From Salegentibacter lacus (GTDB taxonomy: Bacteria; Bacteroidota; Bacteroidia; Flavobacteriales; Flavobacteriaceae): a stretch of DNA of 64,000 nucleotides. The stretch covers positions 1 through 64,000 of the forward strand of contig NZ_JAIQZB010000008.1 of the NCBI RefSeq assembly GCF_020164555.1, written 5' to 3'. Shown here piece after piece: positions 22,092 to 57,870 of this stretch; the first letter of the stretch is position 1, and every line of letters begins with the position of its first letter. The notes below the pieces were generated by a model. It was not told the origin of the DNA and did not search any database. It saw only the letters and a list, made by a program, of their open reading frames with translations. Both the position numbers and the translations under genes were made by a program.

Positions 22092-23105
22092 ATGCAGGTT
22101 GCTGAAAATTTTTCGTTGAAAGAATACAATACTTTTGGAGTAGATGTAACAGCCAGGAAATTTGTTTCGGTGCACTCTACTGGAGAATTACGTGATGTTT
22201 TGCAGCAAACCTATGCTTCCGAAATTTTTGTTTTGGGGGGCGGCAGCAATATGCTTCTTACACAAGATATAGATAAAACCGTTATTCATATTGGCTTAAA
22301 AGGAATTGAACTTATTTCTGAAAGCCGTGATGATGTAGTTTTAAAAGTTGGTGCCGGCGAAAACTGGCACCAATTTGTTTTATATTGTATTGAAAAGGGC
22401 TACGGCGGGCTTGAAAACCTTTCCTTAATTCCGGGTAATGTTGGCACAGCACCGGTTCAAAATATAGGTGCCTATGGCGTTGAACTAAAAGACAGTTTTG
22501 AATCTTGCGAAGCTATGCGCATTCAAACGCTAGAAGTGGACACCTTTAGCGCCGAACAATGCGAATTTGATTACAGAAATTCTGTTTTTAAGAATAAACT
22601 GAAAGGAGAATATATTATTACCTCTGTAAATTTCAGGCTCAGTAAAAAAGATCACCAGTTAAGCACTTCCTATGGTGCGATCCAGGAAGAACTGGACAGA
22701 CATAATATTGAAAAGCCAACGGTTAAAAATGTTTCTGATGCGGTTATAAGTATCCGTCAACAGAAATTACCAGATCCAAGGGAACTGGGAAACAGCGGTA
22801 GTTTTTTTAAAAATCCGGTTATTAAGGAAACTGAATTCAAAAAACTACAAAAACAATTTCCTGAAATGCCTTTTTATGCTTTGCAGGCAAATAACATTAA
22901 AATTCCTGCAGGCTGGCTTATAGACCAGGCCGGTTTAAAAGGTTACCGACAAGGAGACGCGGGAGTACATAAAAATCAGGCATTGGTTCTCGTGAATTAT
23001 GGAAATGCAACCGGACAGGAGATTTTAGCACTTTCCAAAGAAATTCAGGATAAGATCTATAAGAAATACGGCATACAACTCGAACCGGAAGTAAATGTTA
23101 TCTAA
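22092..23105 (+). CDS. murB: UDP-N-acetylenolpyruvoylglucosamine reductase
   Basis: MurB reduces the enolpyruvyl group to give UDP-MurNAc, using NADPH and FAD. At 337 residues it is the type I (E. coli-like) form. FAD-domain motifs seen are VLGGGSNMLLT and LSLIPGNVGTAPVQNIGAYG. The catalytic Ser is in GNSGSFFKNP, and the C-terminal Glu is in QLEPEVNVI. It sits just upstream of the orphan TPP riboswitch and has no terminator of its own that I can see. Confidence 0.95.
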   Translation: MQVAENFSLKEYNTFGVDVTARKFVSVHSTGELRDVLQQTYASEIFVLGGGSNMLLTQDIDKTVIHIGLKGIELISESRDDVVLKVGAGENWHQFVLYCIEKGYGGLENLSLIPGNVGTAPVQNIGAYGVELKDSFESCEAMRIQTLEVDTFSAEQCEFDYRNSVFKNKLKGEYIITSVNFRLSKKDHQLSTSYGAIQEELDRHNIEKPTVKNVSDAVISIRQQKLPDPRELGNSGSFFKNPVIKETEFKKLQKQFPEMPFYALQANNIKIPAGWLIDQAGLKGYRQGDAGVHKNQALVLVNYGNATGQEILALSKEIQDKIYKKYGIQLEPEVNVI

Positions 23106-23190: not shown

Positions 23191-23198
23191 TATATTTA
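23191..23198 (+). promoter_or_regulatory. putative promoter of the TPP riboswitch RNA
   Basis: TATATTTA, one base off TAnnTTTG, lies so that transcription would begin near 23204, the first base of riboswitch helix P1. No -33 box is clear. The fit between predicted start and P1 is the main support. Confidence 0.4.
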
Positions 23199-23203
23199 TA
23201 AAA

Positions 23204-23278
23204 TCAATATCGGGGTGCTTAGGCTGAGAAATACCCGCAAAAACCTGATCTGGATAATCCTAGCGTAGGAAATATTGA
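23204..23278 (+). ncRNA. TPP (THI-box) riboswitch
   Basis: The conserved core is unmistakable: CGGGGTGC, GGCTGAGAAATACCC, ACCTGATCTGGATAAT and AGCGTAGGAAA in the right order and spacing. P1 is a perfect seven-pair helix, TCAATAT (23204-23210) with ATATTGA (23272-23278). A short hairpin (AAAAGAC/GTCTTTT, 23284-23303) and a strong terminator follow. What is odd is that no thiamine gene follows: downstream lies the 3' end of a fasciclin gene on the other strand. The aptamer itself shows no sign of decay. Confidence 0.92.
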
Positions 23279-23312
23279 ATCTGAAAAGACTTCATTGTCT
23301 TTTTACGAGGAG

Positions 23313-23347
23313 AGCTTCATTTTCTTTAGGGAAAATGAAGCTTTTTT
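23313..23347 (+). terminator. expression-platform terminator of the TPP riboswitch
   Basis: AGCTTCATTTTC (23313-23324) pairs perfectly with GAAAATGAAGCT (23331-23342), followed by a T-run. The 5' hairpin just upstream contains CTTCATTGTC, one base different from CTTCATTTTC, so it could compete for the same 3' arm as an antiterminator. That is an inference from sequence. Confidence 0.8.
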
Positions 23348-23363
23348 GGTTGAATATTTGCAT

Positions 23364-23392
23364 AAAAAACCCGTCACAGAATTGACGGGTTT
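23364..23392 (-). terminator. terminator of the fasciclin gene
   Basis: AAACCCGTCA (23367-23376) and TGACGGGTTT (23383-23392) are exact inverses. Read on the minus strand, the hairpin is followed by a T-run from the A bases at 23364-23369. It sits 26 bp past the fasciclin stop. Confidence 0.75.
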
Positions 23393-23417: not shown

Positions 23418-24035
23418 TTATGAAGCTTTCTTCATCACTACACCATCAATAAGGTGTACCATACCATTAGAAGCTTCAATATCTGTAGCGATAATGGTCG
23501 CTGTATTTCCATTTCCATCTTTAAGAACAATGTTCTCACCGTCCATCATAGCGGTAAGCTCTGCACCTTCCATTGTAGCGAAAGTTACCTCACCGTCTCC
23601 GTCTTCTATCATTTGACTTAGATCTGAAGCGGTAATTTCTTTATCTACTACGTGATATTTCAATACCCCGGCTAATTGATCTTTATTTTCACTCTTCATT
23701 AATTCGTCTAATGTAGCTTTATCAACTTTTTCAAAAGCACTGTTTGTAGGTGCAAAAACAGTAAAAGGACCTTCATCTTCAGTAAAAGAAGTGGCTAATT
23801 CTGCACTTTTTAGTGCGCTAACCAAAGTACTTAAAGAATCGGTCGCCATTGCTTTAGCTGCAATACTGTTAGATTCCATTTCCATACGCTCTTTCTCAGC
23901 TTCCATTTCGGCCTGACGCTCTGCTTCCTCCTGCTCCATTTGAGCTTTCTCTTCTTCTTTTTTCTTATTATCCTCACAAGAAGTAAAACTGAATGCAAAA
24001 ACTGCCAATAGTATTAATAAAAATTTAGATTTCAT
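23418..24035 (-). CDS. fasciclin-domain lipoprotein
   Basis: The protein is 205 residues long. A lipoprotein signal (AVFAFSFTSC) is followed by a charged Glu/Lys-rich coiled linker (about 23-60) and one FAS1 domain with FTEDEGPFTVFAPTNSAFEKV and the C-terminal ASNGMVHLIDGVVM. FAS1 domains mediate adhesion. The gene faces the orphan TPP riboswitch, whose read-through RNA would be antisense to it. Confidence 0.9.
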   Translation of the reverse strand: MKSKFLLILLAVFAFSFTSCEDNKKKEEEKAQMEQEEAERQAEMEAEKERMEMESNSIAAKAMATDSLSTLVSALKSAELATSFTEDEGPFTVFAPTNSAFEKVDKATLDELMKSENKDQLAGVLKYHVVDKEITASDLSQMIEDGDGEVTFATMEGAELTAMMDGENIVLKDGNGNTATIIATDIEASNGMVHLIDGVVMKKAS

Positions 24036-57660: not shown

Positions 57661-57732
57661 TAGTCCGTAGGGGAATCGAACCCCTGTTACCAGGATGAAA
57701 ACCTGGCGTCCTAACCCCTAGACGAACGGACC
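57661..57732 (-). tRNA. tRNA-Glu (UUC)
   Basis: On the minus strand, the acceptor GGTCCGT pairs with ACGGACT (first pair G-U), and the anticodon arm is CCAGG-TTTTCAT-CCTGG with anticodon TTC. The T-arm is GGGG-TTCGATT-CCCC. The discriminator is A, and the CCA end is not encoded. 72 bases. Confidence 0.95.
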
Positions 57733-57798: not shown

Positions 57799-57870
57799 TA
57801 GTCCGTAGGGGAATCGAACCCCTGTTACCAGGATGAAAACCTGGCGTCCTAACCCCTAGACGAACGGACC
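57799..57870 (-). tRNA. tRNA-Glu (UUC), second identical copy
   Basis: It is identical to the copy at 57661-57732, separated by a 66-base spacer that is not repeated. This is the promoter-proximal copy. Confidence 0.95.

Follow-up and report, generated by a model that had tools for sequence, protein, structure and literature searches.

A conserved TPP riboswitch of Salegentibacter that precedes no gene of its own and may be a free-standing small RNA

TPP riboswitches are normally regarded as leaders of the genes under their control. For Bacteroides thetaiotaomicron, the part of PMC7366714 used here describes three TPP riboswitches, all with a sense gene. The relevant portion of PMC8079631 presents SreA of Listeria monocytogenes, a SAM riboswitch that heads an operon and whose terminated RNA also acts in trans; AspocR of Listeria, an antisense RNA to pocR that is controlled by a B12 riboswitch; and Rli55, a B12 riboswitch RNA that sequesters an antiterminator protein and has no protein-coding gene of its own. 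In the part of PMC9943018 that tabulates antisense-acting candidates, the TPP row reads 9,766, 83, and P 1.00. Among the titles and abstract openings listed from the open literature, none reports a stand-alone TPP small RNA; subscription papers fall mostly outside that literature, and the locus could be contained in the supplement lists of PMC9943018. A search of the open literature for Salegentibacter together with riboswitch gave a match on hemicellulase gene regulation, judged by its title.

The window (the whole stretch of DNA analyzed, 64,000 nucleotides from Salegentibacter lacus) contains one TPP aptamer above the Rfam gathering score. The match to RF00059 extends from 23201 to 23288 on the + strand and covers the full length of the model (positions 1-105), with a cmscan score of 59.9 bits (gathering score 54.3) and an E-value of 3.1e-9; the element thus belongs to this family by sequence and structure score. 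P1 is a perfect helix of 7 bp, formed by TCAATAT (23204-23210), which is invariant in all 11 copies of the element that we found, and ATATTGA (23272-23278), which is invariant but for one base in the genome labeled G013. These matches bear out the first-pass annotation, which had described a complete and well-conserved aptamer with a perfect P1. Between aptamer and terminator, local folding gives a hairpin of variable sequence (23285-23302, + strand) for each of the 11 copies. The 166 nt from 23195 to 23360 fold better than all of 200 dinucleotide shuffles (z -4.0). Elsewhere in the window, on the minus strand, Rfam identified two tRNA-Glu (TTC) genes at 57661-57732 and 57799-57870, which are identical in sequence, lie 66 nt apart, and score 61.8 bits each.

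The upstream neighbor, in the same direction as the element, is murB (22092-23105, + strand; Pfam MurB_C and FAD_binding_4). Downstream lies a convergent fasciclin-domain gene (23418-24035, minus strand; PF02469, E 5.4e-32), whose designation as a lipoprotein gene was made by eye and by the earlier reader. A terminator-like hairpin of this gene (23367-23392, minus strand) was found in the fold of the 75 nt that follow the element; by eye, it has a short T run on the + strand. Both the opposite orientation of the fasciclin gene and the lack of a thiamine or transporter gene, as first annotated, hold: we found no thi gene, transport gene, or other conserved sense gene downstream, and thus no sense gene for thiamine synthesis or transport of the sort that a cis-acting thi riboswitch would control.

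The first-pass annotation had placed a strong terminator at 23313-23347 on the + strand. The minimum-energy fold contains this intrinsic terminator 3' of the aptamer, as in a terminating riboswitch, with the stem AGCTTCATTTTC / GAAAATGAAGCT, a loop, and a T run; the hairpin itself occupies 23313-23342, and the T run reaches 23347. Nine of the 12 bp in the stem (AGCTTCATT/AATGAAGCT) are invariant in all 11 copies. The hairpin is absent from the list produced by a simple terminator scan of the window; our guess is that the scan probably overlooked it since the stem pairs part of the T run.

The 3' strand of P1 has a possible alternative partner in the 5' strand of the terminator, with which it could form an antiterminator. 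For the nascent RNA before the second terminator arm, 10 of the 11 copies have this pairing in their best local fold; the exception is the window copy, for which the antiterminator fold lies 0.6 kcal/mol above the best local fold. When the terminator arms were shuffled, an equally good duplex was obtained in 9-71% of the shuffles per copy. The expected antiterminator pairs sum to 102, compared to a mean of 86 and a maximum of 113 for shuffled terminator arms; the contrast is clearer against shuffled P1 strands (mean 61, maximum 93). These predicted folds weakly support mutually exclusive pairing of P1 and antiterminator. Since the element is related to TPP leaders, it is likely to work as an on/off switch.

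At the 5' edge of the element, a possible -7 promoter box, TATATTTA (23191-23198, + strand), resembles the Bacteroidota consensus TAnnTTTG, which the part of PMC9723704 used here gives for the sigma-A -7 box in a flavobacterium. In the alignment, TA..TTT is kept in 11 of 11 copies as TATATTTA, TATCTTTA, or TATATTTG, and the final G of the consensus is found in one, in A+T-rich DNA where boxes of this kind are common by chance. A scan for E. coli-type (sigma-70) promoters returned four matches where 4.5 were expected, and no -33 element was seen near the box. Because the sigma-70 matches are at chance level, the claim of a promoter rests on the -7-like box; a plausible promoter at this edge had been noted in the first-pass annotation. 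A start of transcription at about 23203-23206 would fit this box. A TTAAC pentamer (TCAAC in G006) is aligned about 80 nt upstream of the aptamer in all 11 copies, including G012; the pentamer may be an upstream promoter element, or its alignment may be due to chance in DNA rich in A+T.

The whole unit, consisting of the -7-like box, aptamer, variable hairpin, and terminator, is present in 11 of 15 Salegentibacter genomes, with scores of 128-171 bits against the model R1. Since R1 derives from these 11 copies, it necessarily scores them highly, and what is informative is the drop to the runner-up: among 60 relatives (the 15 genomes of the genus included), the best match other than these copies has 57.9 bits and is a leader ahead of a methyltransferase-like gene. 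All 11 places were recovered without R1, through a plain DNA search with the window's 312 bases and the Rfam TPP model. Outside the element's own places, the only matches of the 312-nt query (E 0.001) were further TPP leaders, the terminator in reverse, owing to its palindromic sequence, and a single short and weak match. A wider draw of 397 family genomes, which used even sampling and stricter filters (E 1e-10) and has three genomes of the genus among those listed, added five leaders from outside the genus at 64-80 bits with the full-unit model; all five have a sense reading frame downstream, whose genes were named by eye. The P1/core pattern had nine matches in a named genome collection, eight of them in Salegentibacter and the ninth in a Ruminococcaceae bacterium; the records with this pattern include those of the cultured S. 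salarius and S. agarivorans.

The four genomes of the genus from which the element is absent are G002, G004, G005, and G011. On the tree of the murB region, this distribution needs at least three changes of presence, for example one old presence and three losses (the root is not known). The element is thus probably old in the genus, and dispensable. The TPP leaders of G004 and G005 (L047 and L048) contain a long insertion within the aptamer region and lie ahead of a PnuC-type transporter gene (by eye). Among 19 TPP leaders other than the element that were examined, 17 are accompanied by an ATG frame that starts -10 to +94 nt from the end of the match; one of the other two loci is cut off early, and the second leader enters a TonB-receptor-like frame without an ATG (by eye).

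Mean pairwise identities were calculated over the 10 copies at the murB locus; G012 was omitted because its copy is in a different place. The aptamer is 94.0% identical and the expression platform 74.5%, compared to 61.2% just upstream, 62.5% in the 30-nt promoter stretch, and 47.4% downstream. The 3' coding end of murB has 75.5%; the platform is therefore about as conserved as murB coding DNA, and the aptamer more so. Between G000 and G012, the stretch after the terminator is 22% identical. Across the copies, the aptamer helices are intact in nearly all cases. With an aptamer that is 94% identical next to noncoding flanks at 47-63%, the element is not a decaying remnant, in agreement with the absence of decay that had been noted from the window copy.

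For the variable hairpin, 89.4% of the cells are paired in the structure-fitted alignment (83.6% in the unfitted one); two of the six pairs changed on both sides and seven of the 66 cells are unpaired, a pattern of partial compensation. In the terminator alignment, all cells are paired (100%); one pair changed on both sides, and 9 of 12 pairs never vary. Over the whole structure, nine cells changed on both sides compared to 3.2 in the shuffles, and none of 500 shuffles reached this value. Counted as pairs with a change on both sides, the value is four, which was reached by 15 of the 500 shuffles; further pair types were not in excess over the shuffles. Most pairs are invariant and hence silent on covariation either way.

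The genome that contains the window has four TPP matches; besides the element, one is over the cut-off and two are below. These three precede an operon with methyltransferase, AIR-synthase-like, and TMP-synthase-like genes (L005, named through Pfam), a TonB-dependent receptor gene (L006), and a gene of the nicotinamide-mononucleotide-transporter (PnuC-type) family (L007). The L005 operon (4276-7148 on contig C40) also encodes a small zinc-ribbon-like protein, identified by eye, and a similar methyltransferase-like gene follows the TPP leaders at L028, L097, L108, and L062. This operon is not a familiar one and is a candidate for a role in salvaging thiamine or handling its precursors, in a genome without a ThiC match. 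ThiC was not matched in this genome and was matched in 8 of the 15 genomes of the genus, which indicates that thiamine genes were lost or gained in the lineage. The element is present in five of these eight genomes, and in all five a separate TPP leader lies ahead of ThiC; it is also present in six of the seven genomes without a ThiC match; among these seven, G013 has a completeness of only 61%. Presence of the element thus does not track that of ThiC among the 15 genomes.

The arrangement of riboswitch and fasciclin gene, for which a search of related genomes had been suggested, is present in 10 of the 11 genomes that have the element, with the copy located between murB and fasciclin. An orthologue of murB is found in all 15 genomes of the genus and a close relative of fasciclin (at least 243 bits) in 14, and in G002, G004, G005, and G011 murB and fasciclin are neighbors without the element. 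The exception is G012 (CP051246.1), a metagenome-assembled chromosome listed with 99% completeness and 5% contamination, where the element is found between an outward-pointing gene with an APP1 domain and a gene for an M15 dipeptidase. The best fasciclin match in G012 has 58.5 bits, compared to at least 243 in each of the other 14 genomes. The region downstream of murB in this genome (L087) differs from the usual one, and the genome has no close fasciclin homologue; the altered murB region and the missing homologue may explain the other place of the element. Among fasciclin, ThiC, and M15, none is a constant partner across the 11 copies.

We put the chances at about even that the element is a stand-alone gene for a small RNA that is controlled by TPP and acts in trans. 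Because no downstream gene, frame, or neighbor is common to all copies, the RNA is most likely itself the useful product. The fuller version of this proposal is more tentative, at somewhat under even chances: a dedicated trans-acting small RNA with TPP-gated release and no gene of its own, which would signal vitamin B1 status in Salegentibacter as a diffusible molecule and is retained both in ThiC-bearing genomes and in those that lack ThiC. According to the proposal, the element's own promoter would start the RNA at the base of P1. With TPP bound, P1 would be held, the terminator would form, and an RNA of about 140-150 nt would be released; with TPP scarce, the 3' strand of P1 could pair with the 5' strand of the terminator, and transcription could run on. 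The released RNA would act in trans on another RNA or a protein and would report the TPP status. The computed basis consists of the aptamer (by model score), the terminator (by fold), the conservation, and the absence of a constant partner; we infer that the promoter is used, that the RNA is made and binds TPP, that it switches, and that it acts in trans.

Action in trans, one of the readings in the first-pass annotation, is favored by the elimination of cis targets, but the search with the terminator arm gave no target gene shared between genomes. For the conserved arm AGCUUCAUUU, the exact complementary sites examined for pairing at start codons had no gene in common; this covers one pattern in three genomes, and a target with imperfect pairing could be missed. 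Allowing one mismatch, AAATGAAGCTYYTY has 79, 47, and 71 sites in G000, G010, and G012, respectively, compared to 24, 20, and 34 for the reversed control. This excess may reflect A-rich starts with lysine codons. Among the matches listed, 13 exact AAATGAAGCTYYTY sites lie outside the element, and one of these opens a long frame (388 aa, in G010).

The main rival explanation, which we consider unlikely, is a TPP-gated antisense RNA, as had also been suggested from the sequence of the window. At low TPP, read-through would enter the fasciclin gene from its 3' side and lower the output of fasciclin, as in the case of AspocR and pocR in Listeria. The position fits, as read-through would run into the convergent fasciclin gene in 10 of 11 genomes, and by eye the T run of the fasciclin hairpin is short or absent in the + direction in several genomes, e.g., G000, G014, and G003. 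In G001, G007, and G013, however, a fair T run on the + strand (also by eye) could halt read-through at this hairpin. Precedents are described in parts of PMC8079631 and PMC9943018. A function in all copies is not supported for this reading, because in G012 the element occurs in the absence of a close fasciclin homologue, and in four genomes fasciclin occurs in the absence of the element. A local role between murB and fasciclin may exist, as 10 of 11 copies share this place; the case against it rests on one metagenome-assembled genome, G012. We know of no link between the fasciclin protein and thiamine. It is improbable that the element is the TPP-dependent 3' end of the murB transcript, by which the 3' untranslated region of murB would be trimmed or lengthened. 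In 10 of 11 copies, the element follows murB on the same strand at a distance of about 95-100 nt, and by eye the four genomes without the element have a hairpin soon after murB instead; however, the copy in G012 is not behind murB and has an upstream neighbor that points away, and all 11 copies have the -7-like box at their own 5' edge.

The remaining explanations would assign the element to a gene in cis, present or past. We regard it as very improbable that the element is a normal leader whose gene is either the next sense gene or a small one that was overlooked. In G012 the M15 dipeptidase gene does start 335 nt downstream in the sense direction, but its orthologues, which occur in all 15 genomes, lack the element: a scan with R1 of about 1.5 kb to either side of the 14 other M15 loci found it at none, and M15 was rejected as a general target. 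M15 lies beside SbcD at L149, L151, and L152, as it does in G012. An MKLF frame opens at the AUG within the terminator arm in 11 of 11 copies; these frames have 9-30 codons and unrelated ends, and a short peptide product was rejected. Within 700 nt downstream, 10 of the 11 copies have no sense ATG frame of at least 60 aa other than frames antisense to fasciclin, which occur in four of the 10. The idea that the element is a remnant, left from the leader of a lost thi operon, is scarcely tenable, even though ThiC is found in 8 of 15 genomes and is not matched in the window's own. This idea from the first-pass annotation was rejected: the element is conserved across the genus far above the noncoding flanks and with nearly all aptamer helices intact, five of the eight ThiC-bearing genomes have it beside a separate thi leader, and no thi gene was seen at the place between murB and fasciclin (none within 700 nt downstream in 10 of 10 copies at the murB locus).

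If the element is a free small RNA, it would be unusual, as such sensors usually precede the gene that they control. A conserved copy without a gene, in a genus with cultured strains, offers a direct test of whether a riboswitch can sense a metabolite as a free small RNA. Such a copy is also relevant to how vitamin B1 is sensed in a bacterium without a detectable ThiC, as is the case for the genome of the window.

Among the known systems, the terminating type of the TPP (THI-box) riboswitch, RF00059, shares with the element the aptamer, P1, the terminator, and a possible antiterminator; unlike these leaders, the Salegentibacter element has no thi, transport, or other conserved sense gene. The same difference separates it from the TPP riboswitches of B. 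thetaiotaomicron, a member of the same phylum. Rli55, of which EutX is the counterpart, resembles the element in being a riboswitch RNA without its own protein-coding gene. In contrast to Rli55, the stretch after the element's terminator is poorly conserved (47% identity, 10 copies), and no ANTAR-type hairpins were seen there by eye. With AspocR and other antisense-acting riboswitches, the element shares a convergent gene into which read-through would be antisense; in contrast to AspocR, that gene is not retained in G012. SreA differs in that it heads an operon, which the element does not; the ligand of the element would be TPP, and its role as an effector is a proposal. The likeness to SreA lies in a short, ligand-terminated riboswitch RNA as the proposed effector.
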